Source: a virus. From it: a stretch of DNA of 34,268 nucleotides. Shown here in pieces: positions 2,787-29,574 of this stretch. The stretch is taken from positions 1-34,268 of IMG/VR virus record IMGVR_UViG_3300017967_000093; one strand, written 5' to 3'. Both the position numbers and the translations under genes were made by a program. Positions within the stretch are counted from its first letter, which is position 1; every line of letters begins with the position of its first letter. The notes under the pieces are model-generated. The model made no database searches. It was given only the letters and a program-made list of their open reading frames with translations, and was not told where the DNA came from.

Positions 2787-4254
2787 TGTAGAACAAATTC
2801 GTCAGACTACAAAACAACTAGAAGAACAAATTAGTCCAACCTTTTGTTTGGCTAAATGGCATCACACCTCAATATACATGTACTCTGGGCAAACGCATAG
2901 CTGTTATCACCCACGACCCCATGATATTTCTGTAGAAGAAATCAAAGTAAACCCAGCAGCTCTGCATAATACAAGCACAAAGAAAAAAGAAAGAGCAGAG
3001 ATGCTTGTTGGTGAAAAACCAGATGGGTGTAAGTATTGTTGGAACGTTGAAAGTTTAGATACTGATGAAACACCTTGGGAACAGCAACACATTAGCGATA
3101 GAAAAATTCGTAATGCTAGTATCTTTACACCTGAGCGTATAGAAGAAATTAAAAGCATGCCGTGGGATTACAATGTTAATCCAGAATATATAGAAGTTGC
3201 ATTTCACAATGAATGTAACTTTAAATGTGGTTACTGCCATCCTGCTGTAAGCACAAGCTTCTATAATGAAATTAAAAAGTTTGGTCCATACAACATGGTT
3301 AAAAACCATGCCTTAGATATAGACTACATTGAACAGAGCTCTTTGTTATCATCATTGAAAGATGAAGACAATAATCCCTTTATTAAGGCTTGGTGGGAAT
3401 GGTGGCCCGAGATGTCCAAGACATTAAACATCTTGCGTATTACTGGCGGAGAGCCACTGTTACACAAATCCACGTGGCGGTTATTTAATGATCTAAAAGA
3501 AAATCCTAAGCCTGATTTAGAAATTAATGTTAATAGCAATCTCGGTATGACACATAGGCACGTGGAAAAACTAGTGCCTATTATAAATGATCTTTTAGAC
3601 AGTAAAAAAATTAGAAAGTTTAAGATGTTTACAAGCATGGATACTTGGGGTAAACGTGCTGAGTATTTGCGAACAGGATTAGATGTAAATAAGTGGGAAA
3701 AGAATCAGGACATTTATGTTAGAGGAGTTAAGTCCCATATTACGCACATGTGTACATTCAATATCTTGTCAGTAACTTCTTTTACAGAGTATTTACAAAA
3801 GATTTTAGATTGGCGTGAACTTTATGATGATGTAATTCCTGTATTGGATCCTAGAAATCCACAAGATCGAAAAATAAGGTTTGATACTCCTTATTTAAAA
3901 GAGCCTTTACAATATGATATGCACATTCTTCCTAAAGAAGAATATTTGCCTCACTTTGACAACATCTTAAAGTTTATTGATGATAATAGAGACGACTCGG
4001 ACACTAAAAAATTTAGTGATATAGAATATGAAAGATTTAGACGTGTTAGAGATTATTTTGCCGAAGTTCAGTATGATGATGAAAAAGTAAAACAAGGAAG
4101 AATAGATTTTTATAAATGGTTTACAGAAATAGATAGAAGAAGGGATACAAACTTTTTAGAAACATTTCCAGATATGGAATCATTTTGGAATCTATGTAAA
4201 CACTTAGCGGAAGAAGAAAACAATACTAGAATAGAGGTAGTCAATGTCGGATAG
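2764..4254 (+). CDS. N-twitch radical SAM protein (copy 1)
   Basis: A 496-residue radical SAM enzyme. The cluster-binding CxxxCxxC is at residues 151-158 (CNFKCGYC). The SAM-contact GGEP motif lies near residue 228 (RITGGEPL). Upstream is a separate four-cysteine set (Cys28, 47, 89 and 92 in FCLAKW, HSCYHP and GCKYCW), typical of twitch-type auxiliary [Fe-S] domains at the N-terminus. Enzymes of this layout use a 5'-deoxyadenosyl radical to modify a bound substrate; the reaction of this phage group is not known to me. A paralogue is encoded at 10223. The start overlaps the methyltransferase gene and the end overlaps an SGNH gene by 11 bases, so all are co-translated. Confidence 0.85.
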   Translation: MGTKYESDVEQIRQTTKQLEEQISPTFCLAKWHHTSIYMYSGQTHSCYHPRPHDISVEEIKVNPAALHNTSTKKKERAEMLVGEKPDGCKYCWNVESLDTDETPWEQQHISDRKIRNASIFTPERIEEIKSMPWDYNVNPEYIEVAFHNECNFKCGYCHPAVSTSFYNEIKKFGPYNMVKNHALDIDYIEQSSLLSSLKDEDNNPFIKAWWEWWPEMSKTLNILRITGGEPLLHKSTWRLFNDLKENPKPDLEINVNSNLGMTHRHVEKLVPIINDLLDSKKIRKFKMFTSMDTWGKRAEYLRTGLDVNKWEKNQDIYVRGVKSHITHMCTFNILSVTSFTEYLQKILDWRELYDDVIPVLDPRNPQDRKIRFDTPYLKEPLQYDMHILPKEEYLPHFDNILKFIDDNRDDSDTKKFSDIEYERFRRVRDYFAEVQYDDEKVKQGRIDFYKWFTEIDRRRDTNFLETFPDMESFWNLCKHLAEEENNTRIEVVNVG

Positions 4255-11728: not shown

Positions 11729-13161
11729 TAGAATGGGGCGTAGCAGCAGGCACGCATGACGGTTCTCTTACAGTAGTTAAGGACGATGAGATCGTATTTG
11801 CATCTCATTCGGAAAGATACAGTAGAGTTAAAAACGATAAAGATTTAAATAATGTTATTGTAAAGGATGCACTAAAGTTTGGGTATCCTGATAAAATACA
11901 TTGGTACGAAGATCCTAGTTGGAAGTTTTTAAGAAAAGTTTATGCTGGACAGAAAAACAGATGGTTAAATCCTGCAGTTTACATGAAACAATATGGCATT
12001 ACAAAAACAAAAATTGAATGGGGTGATCATCACAAATCCCACGCAGCGGCAGGCTACTATACTTCTAAATTTGATAAAGCAGCAATATTAGTAATAGATG
12101 CTATAGGAGAATTTACAACCACTTCTATATGGCAAGCCAACGGCAATAAAATGAAATGTAAAAAACGTTGGTATTACCCAAAGTCATTGGGATTGATGTA
12201 TTCTGCATTTACTGATAGGGTAGGGCTAAAGGCAAACGAAGACGAATATATTTTAATGGGTATGGCTGCTTACGGAGACCCTAATAAGTATTATAAAGAC
12301 GTTGAATATCTTTGGAATTCTGGATTAAATTTTCATAGGGGCATTAGGCCTTGGCGTGCTGAGTTATATACAGAACAAGAATATTTTGACATTGCCGCTT
12401 CTGTACAAAAATTTTATGAATTTAAATTTACAGCGTTATTAAAAGAAACAAAGAAAATAACAGGCGAGAAAAACATTGTTGTAATGGGAGGGTGTGCTTT
12501 AAATTGTTTGGCCAACAGATTGATATCACAATATTTTGATGAAAGTTGGATTATGCCTAACCCAGGTGATGCTGGTTCATCTTTGGGTGCTATACTAGCA
12601 AACAAAGGAGAAAAAATAAATTGGCAAGGTCCTTATCTAGGTTACAACATTGAGGGGGAATATCCTGTAAGTGAAGTTTTGGAAGAATTGGTTACCACTG
12701 GGATCTGCGGGGTGGCAAACGGCCGTGCTGAATTTGGGCCTCGTGCTTTGGGCAATCGCTCTCTGCTCGCTGATCCTAGAGGCATGGAAATGAAAGATAA
12801 AGTAAACAAGATTAAAAACAGACAAGAGTATAGACCCTTTGCTCCTGTTATTAGACTTGAAGATGTTCACAAAGAATTTAATGTTGAGGAAGGATTTAAG
12901 TCTCCATATATGCAATATATTGTAACTGCAAAGAGACCTAAAAAGTATCCTGCTATTGTTCATCAAGACGGAACTAGCAGAGTTCAAACAGTTACAAAGG
13001 ATGAGAATCCAGGGCTTTATAAGTTATTAACAAAGTGGAAAACTAAAACAAGATGTCCTATGTTGTTGAATACAAGTTTGAATATCAAAGGACAACCTAT
13101 TGTAAACACTAAAGCTGATGCTATAGAATTTGAGAAACATTACAAAGTAAAAGTTTTTTAA
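11725..13161 (+). CDS. NodU/TobZ-family carbamoyltransferase
   Basis: The frame is open from 11710. The ATG at 11725 gives an ATGA junction with the radical SAM gene and has GGAG 9 bases upstream, so it is chosen (478 residues). The N-terminal Kae1-like half shows GTHDGSLTVV, the metal-binding DHHKSHAAAGYY and LVIDAIGEFTT. The middle holds VMGGCALNCLANR and PNPGDAGSSLGA. The C-terminal YrdC-like half shows GRAEFGPRALGNRSLLADPR and RPFAPVI. These are hallmark motifs of O-carbamoyltransferases, which move a carbamoyl group from carbamoyl phosphate via ATP to a hydroxyl. Family members decorate Nod factors and antibiotics; relatives act on hydroxymethylated bases of phage DNA. The acceptor here is unknown. 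Confidence 0.9.
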   Translation: MIEWGVAAGTHDGSLTVVKDDEIVFASHSERYSRVKNDKDLNNVIVKDALKFGYPDKIHWYEDPSWKFLRKVYAGQKNRWLNPAVYMKQYGITKTKIEWGDHHKSHAAAGYYTSKFDKAAILVIDAIGEFTTTSIWQANGNKMKCKKRWYYPKSLGLMYSAFTDRVGLKANEDEYILMGMAAYGDPNKYYKDVEYLWNSGLNFHRGIRPWRAELYTEQEYFDIAASVQKFYEFKFTALLKETKKITGEKNIVVMGGCALNCLANRLISQYFDESWIMPNPGDAGSSLGAILANKGEKINWQGPYLGYNIEGEYPVSEVLEELVTTGICGVANGRAEFGPRALGNRSLLADPRGMEMKDKVNKIKNRQEYRPFAPVIRLEDVHKEFNVEEGFKSPYMQYIVTAKRPKKYPAIVHQDGTSRVQTVTKDENPGLYKLLTKWKTKTRCPMLLNTSLNIKGQPIVNTKADAIEFEKHYKVKVF

Positions 13162-14688: not shown

Positions 14689-14713
14689 CATATAAATAAA
14701 AAGAGTATATAAT
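14685..14713 (+). promoter_or_regulatory. Sigma70-type promoter with a late element in its spacer
   Basis: TTGACA (14685-14690), 17 bases and TATAAT (14708-14713) form a perfect early-type promoter. The first eight spacer bases are TATAAATA (14691-14698), the T4 late element. The early start would be near 14720, leaving a leader with AGGATGGG before the ATG at 14737; the late start would be near 14704. Both serve the SDR-like gene and the radical SAM gene after it. Confidence 0.75.
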
Positions 14714-16931: not shown

Positions 16932-17594
16932 TTGTTTACACATAATTTGGTAGAGATACCACAACTTAAACAGGTTAATACTGAGAACGGGCGGAGATAT
17001 GTTACTCCGTCCGGGACTCAATATCCATCTGTTACAACTATTTTATCTCATAAGTCTAAGCCATACATTCAAGCTTGGCGTAAAAGAATAGGCGAAAAAG
17101 AAGCAGATAAAATTAGTAGACGTGCCACAACTCGTGGTACAAAGATTCACAAACTTTGCGAAGACATTCTTAATAATGAATTGACTGAGGATACAAACCT
17201 CAATTATATTGATAAGGAAATGTTTCGTAAGTTTCGCCCTTTGTTAGATGATATTGATAATATCAGAGCAATCGAGGCAAAAATGTATAGTGATCATTTA
17301 CGTCTTGCAGGACAGGTTGACTGTATTGCAGAATATAATGGTAAACTATCTGTAATTGACTTTAAAACGTCAATGAAACCAAAAAGCAGAAGTCAGTGCG
17401 AAAATTATTTTATTCAATGCTCTGCCTATGCTATAATGTTTGAGGAAAGAACAGGAATACCTGTTTCTCAATCAGTCATTCTTATGGCTGTTGAAGGCGA
17501 AGAGCCAATAGTGCATGTTGAAAAACGTGATAACTATGTAGAAAAATTGCTCAACGCTAGAGACAGTTATGAGACTGAAGTTATAAATAACTAA
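16932..17594 (+). CDS. PD-(D/E)XK (RecB-like) exonuclease
   Basis: A 220-residue nuclease of the Cas4/RecB-like or MGME1-like type. The catalytic signature is GTKIHKLCEDIL (about residues 75-86), then AGQVDCIAEYNGKLSVIDFKTS (near 130-150), which supplies the D...D-x-K core. A QxxxY-like segment follows (NYFIQCSAYA). Start: TTG at 16932, directly after the previous stop, with ACGGGAG 10 bases upstream; no earlier start is possible and the next Met is far inside. It probably trims single-stranded DNA ends in recombination-dependent replication or degrades host DNA. The late element at 17582 lies in its last codons. Confidence 0.8.
   Translation: MFTHNLVEIPQLKQVNTENGRRYVTPSGTQYPSVTTILSHKSKPYIQAWRKRIGEKEADKISRRATTRGTKIHKLCEDILNNELTEDTNLNYIDKEMFRKFRPLLDDIDNIRAIEAKMYSDHLRLAGQVDCIAEYNGKLSVIDFKTSMKPKSRSQCENYFIQCSAYAIMFEERTGIPVSQSVILMAVEGEEPIVHVEKRDNYVEKLLNARDSYETEVINN
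17582..17589 (+). promoter_or_regulatory. Late promoter for the tmRNA
   Basis: A full TATAAATA match that overlaps the end of the nuclease gene. The expected start, about 6 bases downstream (17595), coincides with the 5' end of the tmRNA acceptor part, so the tmRNA is likely expressed late. Confidence 0.6.
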
Positions 17595-17895
17595 TCTGAT
17601 GAAACGGACTGAAAAGGTATTTGGACGTGGGTGCGATTCCCACCACCTCCACCAGATATGTATTTGTGTATTTGTAACAATGTAAGAGAGGGTGATACAG
17701 AAAAGTATCACTTAATTGGAACAAATTGTGGTAAGTGCATATCTGATGGGGGTGAACAGGTTCGACAAGTGCTCAGTAGGAAAGTGGAGGATCGGTGTGC
17801 AAGCGACCGTAACCGTAATGAAACACAATAAATGCCAACGATGAGGTATTTTCTCTAGCTGCTTAAGCTAGACGGGGTAAGGGTTCCACCTTGTT
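17595..17895 (+). ncRNA. ssrA: Circularly permuted tmRNA, tag ANDEVFSLAA
   Basis: The parts of a tmRNA are present in permuted order. First comes the acceptor piece: T-stem GTGGG (17627-17631), loop TGCGATT, CCCAC, then CACCTCC (17644-17650) and ACCA (17651-17654). A 93-base spacer follows, closed by the 8-bp helix CAGATATG/CATATCTG (17653-17660 with 17738-17745) and holding a GTGATAC/GTATCAC hairpin. Next is the coding piece, starting GGGGGTG (17748-17754). It pairs with the acceptor strand over 7 bp, with the G3-U70 pair that specifies alanine. Its D-loop-like GGTTCGACA follows, and TCAGT (17773-17777) pairs with ACTGA (17608-17612) as helix P2. The tag reads from GCC at 17834 to TAA at 17866. 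A 7-bp hairpin at 17854-17872 covers the tag stop. The outer ends are estimates. Confidence 0.88.
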
Positions 17896-17941
17896 ATCAA
17901 ACGGGCCCAATTTGACACACACATACACACAGGAGGTTATT

Positions 17942-18160
17942 ATGTCAAATCCATTCGAACTTAGATTTTCTATGTTTACTGAAGCAAAATCTTTGCTAAC
18001 TGAACAGTATCACATGGAACGAGATAATCTAATATCCAAATATCATGCAGATGTAGATTCGGGGCTTAGTCCAGATTTTCCATCTATGCCTGCTTTTCCT
18101 AGCTTCAAAGAAATTGAAGTTATGGCAAATGATATTAATAGATTTGTTTCGTCTAAGTAA
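17942..18160 (+). CDS. Small conserved-type protein (72 aa)
   Basis: The frame is open from 17891, but only the ATG at 17942 has a strong site (AGGAGG, 6 bases upstream). The product, MSNPFELRFSMFTEAKSLL onward, is a helical N-terminal half (FTEAKSLLTEQYHMERDNL), a Pro/Phe/Ser-rich middle, and a short final helix. Proteins of this size and pattern recur in T4-like marine phages without known function as far as I recall. It follows the tmRNA and lies 55 bases before the cell-wall hydrolase. Confidence 0.75.
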   Translation: MSNPFELRFSMFTEAKSLLTEQYHMERDNLISKYHADVDSGLSPDFPSMPAFPSFKEIEVMANDINRFVSSK

Positions 18161-18749: not shown

Positions 18750-19628
18750 ATGAACTACTCAGAAGTACCCAACGTCATTGTAACCGGCGGGTGTGGATTT
18801 ATAGGATCCCATTTAGTGGAAAGACTTCTTTATGAAGGCTTTGTTGTTACAGTTATTGACGATCAAAGAAGCGGAAGGACGGTTATAAATCATCCTAATG
18901 TTAAATATCACTTCTGCGATGTAGTTAAATTCAATCCTTATGTGTCTAATGTACAACCACCAACTGCTATATTTCATATGGCAAATAGTCCGAGGGTTAG
19001 ACGTTCGTTAGACTATCCAACAGAAACAATTGCTAATAATGTTGTAACAACAGCAGTCGTATCTGATTGGGCTAGGGTTATGAATTGTAGGTTGTTCTTT
19101 GCGACTTCATCTAGCACAAAGTATAAGGAATCTAAAAATCCATATACTTGGAGCAAGTCTGTTTGTGAGGATTTATTAGAATTGTATAAGGAAACATACG
19201 GTTTAGTTTATACAAAGCTATTCTTTTACAATGTATATGGACCTAGAGAAGCAGACTACGGTGAATATAGCACAGTCGTAAGAAAGTTTAAAATGGATTA
19301 CTTAGCAGGAAATCCATTAACGGTATATGGTACAGGAAAAAAAGAAAGAGACTTTACACATGTCTTTGATGTTGTTCAAGGTCTCATGCAATTGTTAGTA
19401 GACGAGAGAGATCTTCAGGAAGTACATCTAGGCAAGGGGTATCCTGTTACTATCAATTCTATTGCAGAATGTTTTCCTTGTACTGTTATAAATGCTTTTG
19501 ATAGACCTGGCGAGGCTCAAAGAACTTTTTGTGAAACCCCTTATATAGAATGCCCAACAGATGTACATGCCTATATAAGACATTGGATCAAGGAGAACCC
19601 AATTGATCACGCTAATCGTGAACAATAA
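18750..19628 (+). CDS. NAD-dependent sugar epimerase (second)
   Basis: A 292-residue extended SDR protein. The NAD-binding motif GGCGFIG is at residues 13-19, the active serines at 120-122 (FATSSSTKY) and YxxxK at Tyr132-Lys136 (YTWSK). NVYGPREADYG and DFTHVFDVV are typical of UDP-glucose or UDP-galactose 4-epimerase-like enzymes. It is not a close copy of the enzyme at 4999. No ribosome binding site is visible: the -10 box ends 6 bases before the ATG, so the mRNA may be leaderless. It overlaps gp33 by 26 bases, placing a sugar gene at the head of the replication/late-transcription operon. Confidence 0.86.
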   Translation: MNYSEVPNVIVTGGCGFIGSHLVERLLYEGFVVTVIDDQRSGRTVINHPNVKYHFCDVVKFNPYVSNVQPPTAIFHMANSPRVRRSLDYPTETIANNVVTTAVVSDWARVMNCRLFFATSSSTKYKESKNPYTWSKSVCEDLLELYKETYGLVYTKLFFYNVYGPREADYGEYSTVVRKFKMDYLAGNPLTVYGTGKKERDFTHVFDVVQGLMQLLVDERDLQEVHLGKGYPVTINSIAECFPCTVINAFDRPGEAQRTFCETPYIECPTDVHAYIRHWIKENPIDHANREQ

Positions 19629-19899
19629 AAAAGAAGATTTGAAAGAAACAAGAATATCAGATGTTTTTCTTATTACAAAGGAATTCAAAACATCTACAGA
19701 ATTTTCACAATTCATTGAAAAGAAATCATACCAAACAGGACTTACTTGTATGGATGTGATACTTGACTATTGTGAACGTAATGAGATTGAAGTTGAAAGT
19801 GTAAATAAACTTCTTAGCAGTTCGTTAAAAGAAAAGGTTAAAGCAGAAGCTCAAAGCCTTAATATGCTAAAGGAAAAGGAAAATCAACTACCTATTTAA
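19603..19899 (+). CDS. 33: Late promoter transcription accessory protein gp33
   Basis: A 98-residue protein resembling T4 gp33, which bridges RNA polymerase and the sliding clamp gp45 and works with sigma factor gp55 at TATAAATA promoters. The gp33-like core is TSTEFSQFIEKKSYQTGLTC, then MDVILDYCERNEIEVESVNK and LKEKVKAEAQSLNML. The chosen start is TTG at 19603, with AAGGAG 7-8 bases upstream; a GTG at 19618 is the alternative. It overlaps the epimerase end by 26 bases. Order gp33-gp59-gp32 agrees with the T4 gene neighbourhood. It fits the late elements found across this window. Confidence 0.78.
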   Translation: MITLIVNNKKEDLKETRISDVFLITKEFKTSTEFSQFIEKKSYQTGLTCMDVILDYCERNEIEVESVNKLLSSSLKEKVKAEAQSLNMLKEKENQLPI

Positions 19900-27484: not shown

Positions 27485-27492
27485 TATTTATA
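27485..27492 (-). promoter_or_regulatory. Internal late promoter before the gp2-like gene
   Basis: A full TATAAATA match in the gap between gp4 and the gp2-like gene. The expected start falls on the A of the ATG at 27479, so it would give a leaderless message or serve downstream genes. Confidence 0.5.
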
Positions 27493-29535: not shown

Positions 29536-29543
29536 TATAAATA
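29536..29543 (+). promoter_or_regulatory. Late promoter of the gp48-gp53-gp27-gp5 operon
   Basis: A full TATAAATA match. The expected start near 29550 leaves a leader of about 24 bases before gp48. No sigma70-type promoter is seen in this gap. Confidence 0.72.
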
Positions 29544-29566
29544 AGTTAAACGCTAATAACTGGGAC

Positions 29567-29574
29567 TATTTATA
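29567..29574 (-). promoter_or_regulatory. Late promoter of the minus-strand structural operon
   Basis: TATAAATA on the minus strand, overlapping the first base of the gp48 gene. The expected start near 29560 leaves about 38 bases before the ANL gene, including its AAGGA. The two late promoters of this gap face across each other, so the transcripts share about 10 bases. Confidence 0.65.

Follow-up and report, generated by a model that had tools for sequence, protein, structure and literature searches.

The closest described systems are permuted, two-piece tmRNAs. In the accessible text of one paper (PMC9004378), the OM43 phage Melnitz carries a two-piece tmRNA. Of the 133 unique phage tmRNAs considered there, 53 have this form, and 50 of these come from marine or aquatic phages. 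In the part of a second source available to us (PMC11915505), some tmRNA genes contain a group I intron, in some cases with a homing endonuclease gene, and in one permuted tmRNA the intervening sequence contains a tRNA gene. The tmRNA studied here was found in the 34,268-bp virus record IMGVR_UViG_3300017967_000093, which as a whole is called the window. It is a new member of the published kind; phage two-piece tmRNAs have already been described. The window tmRNA resembles the alphaproteobacterial type (RF04321 and RF01849) in the order of its pieces, in the acceptor stem with a G3-U70 pair, in the T arm, in a predicted P2 helix between the pieces and in a tag ending in AA, but it is phage-borne and has a predicted protein-coding spacer. 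It shares with Melnitz and HTVC008M (Kyanoviridae) a neighbourhood of PhoH, exonuclease, tmRNA and gp33, whereas the tags of these phages (ANDNYVPVDYALAA and ANFNEYALAA) are different and their spacers hold another gene or none. Like the tmRNA genes with introns or an inserted tRNA, it would harbour an additional gene within a segment that the mature RNA lacks; those inserts are self-splicing introns or tRNA, whereas the phage tmRNAs compared here appear to hold small protein genes in the permutation spacer.

The window phage is a T4-like marine phage, with genes of the gp32, gp59, gp33-like, PhoH and exonuclease families. Among isolates, the top-ranked matches to its gp32 had 56-59% identity and came from Melnitz, Prochlorococcus phages and HTVC008M. 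A DNA search of isolate phages gave no match to the tmRNA region of the window. Compared loci are labelled with L-numbers, L278 being Melnitz and L281 HTVC008M; the IMG/VR contigs among them possibly include some cellular DNA. The features of the window are as follows.

16932 to 17594, plus strand: exonuclease gene (PHROGs family phrog_298), upstream neighbour of the tmRNA
17582 to 17589, plus strand: predicted T4-type late promoter TATAAATA, inside the 3' end of the exonuclease gene
17595 to 17654, plus strand: acceptor piece (P2 3' strand, T arm, acceptor 3' strand, ACCA), from ARAGORN and Rfam, with the 5' end placed from the promoter
17644 to 17650, plus strand: acceptor stem 3' strand CACCTCC, partner of 17748-17754; U70 is 17648
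17651 to 17654, plus strand: ACCA end
17653 to 17660, plus strand: 5' arm of the closing helix, CAGATATG, which contains the ATG
17655 to 17747, plus strand: intervening sequence of 93 nt, expected to be removed
17658 to 17747, plus strand: putative spacer gene of 30 codons, MYLCICNNVREGDTEKYHLIGTNCGKCISD, in frame 0 from the ATG at 17658, stop-less and ending at the predicted RNase P site
17658 to 17831, plus strand: ORF of the uncut precursor, 57 aa, with its TAA (17829-17831) inside the tmRNA body
17738 to 17745, plus strand: 3' arm of the closing helix, CATATCTG
17748 to 17754, plus strand: acceptor stem 5' strand GGGGGTG
17748 to 17911, plus strand: tmRNA coding piece, from ARAGORN and Rfam; the 3' end is approximate (end of the RF01849 match)
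17834 to 17866, plus strand: tag frame ANDEVFSLAA including the stop (ARAGORN)
17942 to 18160, plus strand: 72-aa gene downstream of the tmRNA, no family found
19603 to 19899, plus strand: late promoter transcriptional regulator (gp33-like, phrog_254), in the conserved neighbourhood

The permuted tmRNA, with its promoter, occupies 17582-17911. The sequence-only reading had proposed a phage-encoded permuted tmRNA here and had named a covariance-model search as the check. RF04321 matched at 110.4 bits (cut-off 47; E 6e-21) and the alpha_tmRNA model RF01849 at 70.1 bits (cut-off 50), both above the curated thresholds, and ARAGORN agreed, which confirms the permuted tmRNA. The coordinates of the sequence-only reading held on recheck, with the acceptor strands, spacer and tag placed as listed above. 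ARAGORN also called the proposed tag ANDEVFSLAA, whose LAA ending is a predicted protease degron, the G3-U70 pair for alanine identity is present in the 7-bp acceptor stem, and the two arms of the 8-bp closing helix, CAGATATG and CATATCTG, are exact. The first two bases of this repeat are the CA of the CCA end, which is encoded. The P2 helix between the pieces, as drawn by ARAGORN, has 8 bp with three G-U pairs; unconstrained cofolding of the two pieces recovered the acceptor and T stems and gave no clear P2. A second RF04321 match at 12142-12273 scored 21 bits, below the cut-off, and was dropped.

We compared the core with those of other phages. A pattern scan of viral contigs yielded at least 120 stretches; when ARAGORN was run on 120, it called 70 permuted tmRNAs. 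Among 114 unique phage tmRNA cores, the acceptor stem, T stem and tag ending are preserved, pairs 5-68 and 6-67 vary on both sides, and G3-U70 is kept in 113. The sole exception, L050, is an ARAGORN misfit, as the locus has a GGGGG 5' piece. The tags retain their amino acids through synonymous changes; of 74 distinct tags, 67 end in LAA and 73 in AA. A set of 80 gp32 relatives, which included many fragments, had 40 records above the RF04321 cut-off, and Melnitz and HTVC008M exceeded it as well (20/50 in a first batch and 22/32 in a second that included these two phages). The order exonuclease-tmRNA-gp33 was found in 34 of the 42 gp32-relative loci having both genes (31 by ARAGORN; L232, L234 and L252 by RF04321), and neither method found a tmRNA between the two genes in the other eight.

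In HTVC008M (KC465899), the permuted tmRNA lies at 145161-145370 (L281:4662-4871), scores 90.6 bits with RF04321 and has the tag ANFNEYALAA; it is unannotated in the record and is overlapped by a hypothetical CDS, AGE60528. In Melnitz, a glutamine riboswitch (L278:3649-3697) stands 3' of the tmRNA match, where RF01849 ends at 3641, and 5' of gp33. This position makes an action on the gp33 side more likely than the control of the tmRNA that had been stated. Rfam gave no glutamine riboswitch above the cut-off in the window. At L218:1470-1560, a tRNA-like sequence recognized by eye in an alignment immediately precedes the acceptor piece, which suggests co-transcription.

The tmRNA had been assigned its own late promoter. 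The motif TATAAATA occurs 10 times in the window against 5.5 expected, and 6 of 100 shuffles reached 10, so this count is weak by itself. Among upstream regions less than 70% alike, the motif was present in 79 of 137, and in 74 of these 79 it stood 72-80 nt before the CCA end. The controls gave 1.7% for random windows and 5/137 for the antisense strand. The fixed place of the motif in relatives and the late transcription regulator gene in the window bear out the claim, and late expression of the window tmRNA is well supported by these comparisons. In 60 of the 79 relatives, TTGAC is found 15-24 nt upstream of TATAAATA, forming a composite promoter, so that early expression with host sigma factor is possible in those relatives; at this place the window has only GAGACA, within the exonuclease gene. 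Both promoter classes may thus be in use among the tmRNAs of relatives. According to the accessible text of PMC9004378, the Melnitz paper argued for an early promoter before the tmRNA, whereas our comparison supports late promoters of the T4 type in front of phage tmRNAs, many of them composite. Other TATAAATA motifs directly before genes of the window are at 1183-1194, 14691-14698, 27485-27492 and 29536-29574, two of these being divergent pairs.

The 93-base spacer had been described as a precursor spacer closed by a helix. Its size and place were correct, but it is not merely a spacer: alignment with the nearest relatives revealed unexpected conservation, and the sequence appears to be coding. 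The frame opened by the ATG at 17658 closes with a complete codon at 17747, directly next to the 5' acceptor strand. This ATG is without a Shine-Dalgarno sequence; CACCTCC just 5' of it resembles an anti-Shine-Dalgarno. Over the whole spacer (about 16-17 synonymous and 76-77 nonsynonymous sites), the window differs by 6 synonymous and 3 nonsynonymous changes from L163 (Fisher p 1e-3), by 8 and 3 from L187 (p 3e-5) and by 10 and 5 from L300 (p 2e-6). The synonymous skew was absent from the other two frames in the same comparisons. Over the 30 codons, the counts were 10 and 3 for L300 (p 3e-7) and 14.5 and 9.5 for L392 (p 1e-7). The pN/pS values against L293, L299, L300 and L392 were 0.11, 0.08, 0.06 and 0.15, and those of the remaining pairs 0.07-0.28. 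This substitution pattern indicates strong purifying selection on the codons of the spacer, confined to frame 0.

The peptide belongs to a family of small four-cysteine proteins. A search with the 57-aa query gave 31 viral loci, and one with the family alignment gave 100, the best 80 of which were analyzed; several of the 80 are near-identical contigs. Among these best 80 of 100, the gene lies in a tmRNA spacer in 13, just upstream of a tmRNA in 7 and without an ARAGORN tmRNA nearby in 60. The 13 spacer loci comprise the 10 of the window clade, L300, L392 and L395, and thus at least four tmRNA lineages, with tags ANDEVFSLAA or ANDEVFALAA (window clade), ANDDVYDYAMAA, ANDDNYYQEFALAA and AANDAFFDGEVLPLAA. 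A stop codon within the spacer was found in none of the 13, and the four lineages keep a stop-less fusion of GKC[IV]SD followed by GG. The amino acids are nearly identical in L300 and L392 despite their different tmRNA bodies; the 6 kb of L300 contained no exonuclease or gp33 match, indicating a different gene neighbourhood. In L317, L318, L319, L434, L435, L436 and L440, the family gene is outside the spacer and precedes a same-strand permuted tmRNA, the call of which begins 111-531 nt past the ORF start. A family gene just before a permuted tmRNA is a second type of tmRNA neighbourhood. Of the 60 loci without a tmRNA, some have stand-alone genes of 31 to 79 aa and others have the peptide N-terminal to longer proteins. 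In L301 and L303-L307 it is an in-frame N-terminal fusion to a UvsW-type helicase, as assigned by Pfam on L303 (UvsW_N, PF21241, 59.5 bits); in L302 it precedes a T5orf172 protein (27.8 bits), and no Pfam family was found for the longer protein of L393.

Sixteen members were aligned with respect to their conserved residues. M1, Y2, C4, C6, G21, C24, G25 and C27 are invariant, the M1 codon being TTG or GTG in some members, and the four cysteines form CxC and CxxC motifs with shorter spacing than in bacterioferritin-associated ferredoxin (Bfd). When the family profile was searched against the PDB (177,635 sequences), the top four were the Bfd chains 6e6r, 4e6k, 6e6q and 6e6s (E 5e-6 to 1.3e-5), which are nearly alike in the alignments shown. 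In the profile alignment, the family and Bfd match at the M-Y-x-C-x-C start and the G-T-x-C-G-K-C end, with 14 middle residues missing. Fer2_BFD matched 14 of the 16 members at E ≤1, with a best value of 1.2e-5. Singly, the window peptide scored 10.7-14.4 bits and L395, L318 and L440 scored 14.6-18.7 bits, all below the cut-off of 26; the peptide is therefore termed Bfd-like rather than a member. The window peptide also matched zinc_ribbon_6 at E 0.005-0.02, below the cut-off of that family, and a zinc site would be equally possible as a [2Fe-2S] cluster. AlphaFold gave no usable model of the family (pLDDT 45). Taken together, homology, reading frame and selection show that the window spacer encodes a predicted mini Bfd-like four-cysteine peptide.

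We then considered spacers of other phage tmRNAs. Searching 310 phage loci, several of which overlap on one contig (L290-L292, L174-L176), with a finder that looks for paired acceptor and T stems gave 232 permuted tmRNAs with 159 unique spacers of 5-499 nt. As the finder demands a perfect 7-bp acceptor stem and 5-bp T stem, some tmRNAs are lost, and ARAGORN misses some genes too. An ATG frame covering at least 60% of the spacer was present in 20 of 23 spacers of at least 150 nt, against 1.5 ± 1.1 in shuffles, where 100 runs never exceeded 5. Spacers of 90-150 nt had such a frame in 23 of 42 cases (8.0 ± 2.5); the 40-90 nt class showed no excess (5/51 vs 12.4 ± 3.0). A Shine-Dalgarno sequence with an ORF of at least 20 aa was found in 18/23 (5.0 ± 1.9) and 15/42 (5.1 ± 2.1) of the two longer classes, respectively. 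The unique spacers are non-independent, 7 of the 23 longest being one family. Without length classes, the open-frame test was mildly significant (29 of 70 spacers of at least 60 nt vs 20.1 ± 3.4).

The contents of these spacers are diverse. DUF6356 was identified in the frames of L019 (43.3 bits) and L041 (33.5 bits; cut-off 24.4), and an Oxidored-like domain in that of L259 (40.5 bits, cut-off 24, E 2e-10); the frames of L259 and L034 have no ATG within the spacer. In a set of seven membrane-peptide spacers, the stop is at -4 from the 5' piece in 7/7, with pN/pS of 0.07-0.49. Five compared members of a second cysteine-rich set (MVICSC...) gave 0.10-0.78, and the L050/L056 frames 0.34. The spacer ORFs that were compared with PHROGs matched no family convincingly. 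The 142-nt Melnitz spacer has a Shine-Dalgarno sequence and frame (MFKWLSKTRLVVITRDYF...) for a predicted peptide MFKWLSKTRLVVITR..., which among 50,697 phage records occurs only in four Melnitz genomes, beneath the SsrA feature; peptides of three other spacer families had no match in these records. Of 20 spacer-gene loci, 13 (L017, L041, L048, L053, L056, L061, L062, L122, L167, L293, L299, L321, L333) have at least two of PhoH, exonuclease, gp33, gp59 and gp32 as neighbours, L019, L050 and L066 have weaker matches only, and L006, L034, L064 and L108 have none, so that a few might not be T4-like phages. The mini-Bfd loci L300-L320 were also in the neighbour listing. Sister contigs with the same tag differ in their spacers, L270-L272 having 133 nt with a gene that the 72-nt spacers of L273, L275 and L276 do not contain, which looks as if cargo had been swapped. 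These comparisons indicate that the spacer is a general slot in which other phage tmRNAs hold other small genes.

Alphaproteobacterial tmRNAs were used as a control. RF04321 passed its cut-off in 174 of 190 genomes. Spacers were 5-48 nt in 31 best-scoring or own loci and 10-232 nt in 12 loci picked for long matches; 8 of these 43 were measured by a looser rule (24, 34, 41, 5 and 24 nt among the best-scoring, 232, 115 and 10 nt among the long matches), and at L366, where two pairings were candidates, we used the nearer one. As far as the translations show, none of the 12 long-match loci has an ATG frame filling the spacer, including the three of at least 100 nt (165, 232 and 115 nt); the L381 spacer has a 43-codon open stretch without ATG. 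Matches longer than 270 nt numbered 4 among the 150 host matches listed, one of which (G166) contains a spacer that measures just 44 nt, versus 14 of 42 phage matches above the cut-off. Long, gene-filled spacers thus look like a phage trait in this host sample, which is small and biased, the choice of best scorers favouring short spacers.

The permuted form had also been taken as a host clue, such genes being known from alphaproteobacteria, some cyanobacteria and some betaproteobacteria, and a comparison with SAR11 ssrA had been proposed. We did not find support for a SAR11 host. blastn of the window tmRNA against 289 sampled alphaproteobacterial genomes revealed no close ssrA; among the matches listed there were short pieces only, the best covering about 45 nt of the T-arm side (E 6.7e-5). 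The D-loop 19-mer GGGGGTGAAYAGGTTCGAC occurred in 29 genome contigs, 28 of which are labelled otherwise than alphaproteobacteria. Host assignment by this rare 19-mer was itself rejected: the contigs are mostly Elusimicrobia and Omnitrophota, and ARAGORN called a one-piece tmRNA at 21 of the 29 loci.

We consider it probable (about 0.8) that the locus encodes a functional two-piece phage tmRNA, the precursor of which also serves as the mRNA for the spacer peptide. A single transcript from the late promoter would contain the acceptor piece, the spacer and the coding piece. By analogy with the family, RNase P and 3' processing would free the two tmRNA pieces, which would pair via the acceptor stem and P2, accept alanine and rescue stalled ribosomes with ANDEVFSLAA. 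The spacer peptide could be translated from the uncut precursor, giving 57 aa whose tail is read from tmRNA body sequence. Alternatively, the freed spacer could be the template, with its ATG 3 nt from the 5' end. Most simply, the small gene would be cargo read from either RNA.

A narrower form of this explanation is a simple polycistron, in which the cargo is independent, serves genome packing and has no link to ribosome rescue. We give it roughly even odds. Many spacer genes have their own Shine-Dalgarno sequence and a stop inside the spacer, the cargo is diverse, and L273, L275 and L276 have a different spacer without the L270 gene; in contrast, the mini-Bfd gene reads stop-less through the processing site in four lineages and adjoins the tmRNA in seven more loci, which suggests some link. 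Because four lineages are without a stop before the cut, this link may be to non-stop rescue. The freed spacer, consisting of G-A-U, AUG and 29 codons and cut stop-less at a codon boundary, would be a built-in non-stop message. Ribosomes stalling at its end would be rescued by the tmRNA of the same transcript, and the mini Bfd-like peptide would be tagged with ANDEVFSLAA, giving a self-referring sensor or feedback loop in which the choice between free and tagged peptide could depend on cluster loading, cutting rate or tmRNA supply. The seven membrane-peptide spacers, by contrast, all have a stop at -4. We consider this non-stop extension rather unlikely.

Conservation of the spacer for RNA structure or processing rather than for protein would account for the 8-bp closing helix and for the TGAT that precedes the 5' piece in many spacers. 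We regard it as very improbable, since the changes fall at synonymous sites, the peptide sequence is nearly unchanged in L300 and L392, whose tmRNA bodies differ, as well as in stand-alone and fused genes, and spacer length and content elsewhere vary freely. Hardly any weight is left for an ordinary permuted tmRNA with an inert spacer open by chance: chance frames are common in short spacers, as the pooled test and the below-chance 40-90 nt class show, but the window frame has frame-specific selection, homologues as independent genes and a profile match to Bfd. That the protein is real and the tmRNA a decayed relic, serving as an untranslated frame or leader, is scarcely credible in spite of the three G-U pairs of P2 and the unclear cofold, as the acceptor stem, T stem, G3-U70, tag ending, synonymously varying tag and synteny are all kept in the relatives.

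In the open-licence literature, as far as accessible to us, we found no description of a permuted tmRNA whose spacer holds a protein gene. Since a permuted tmRNA is annotated from end to end as a single RNA, a protein gene inside it can go unseen, as with the frame beneath the SsrA feature of the isolated phage Melnitz. If our reading is true, one transcript would be both tmRNA precursor and mRNA, the small genes in phage tmRNA spacers would represent a new way of gene packing, and small phage genes, including those for redox or metal-binding peptides, membrane peptides, DUF6356 and Oxidored-like proteins, would have been overlooked. Two questions would also become testable, namely whether phages couple ribosome rescue to a redox peptide and for what reason they retain the permuted form of tmRNA.
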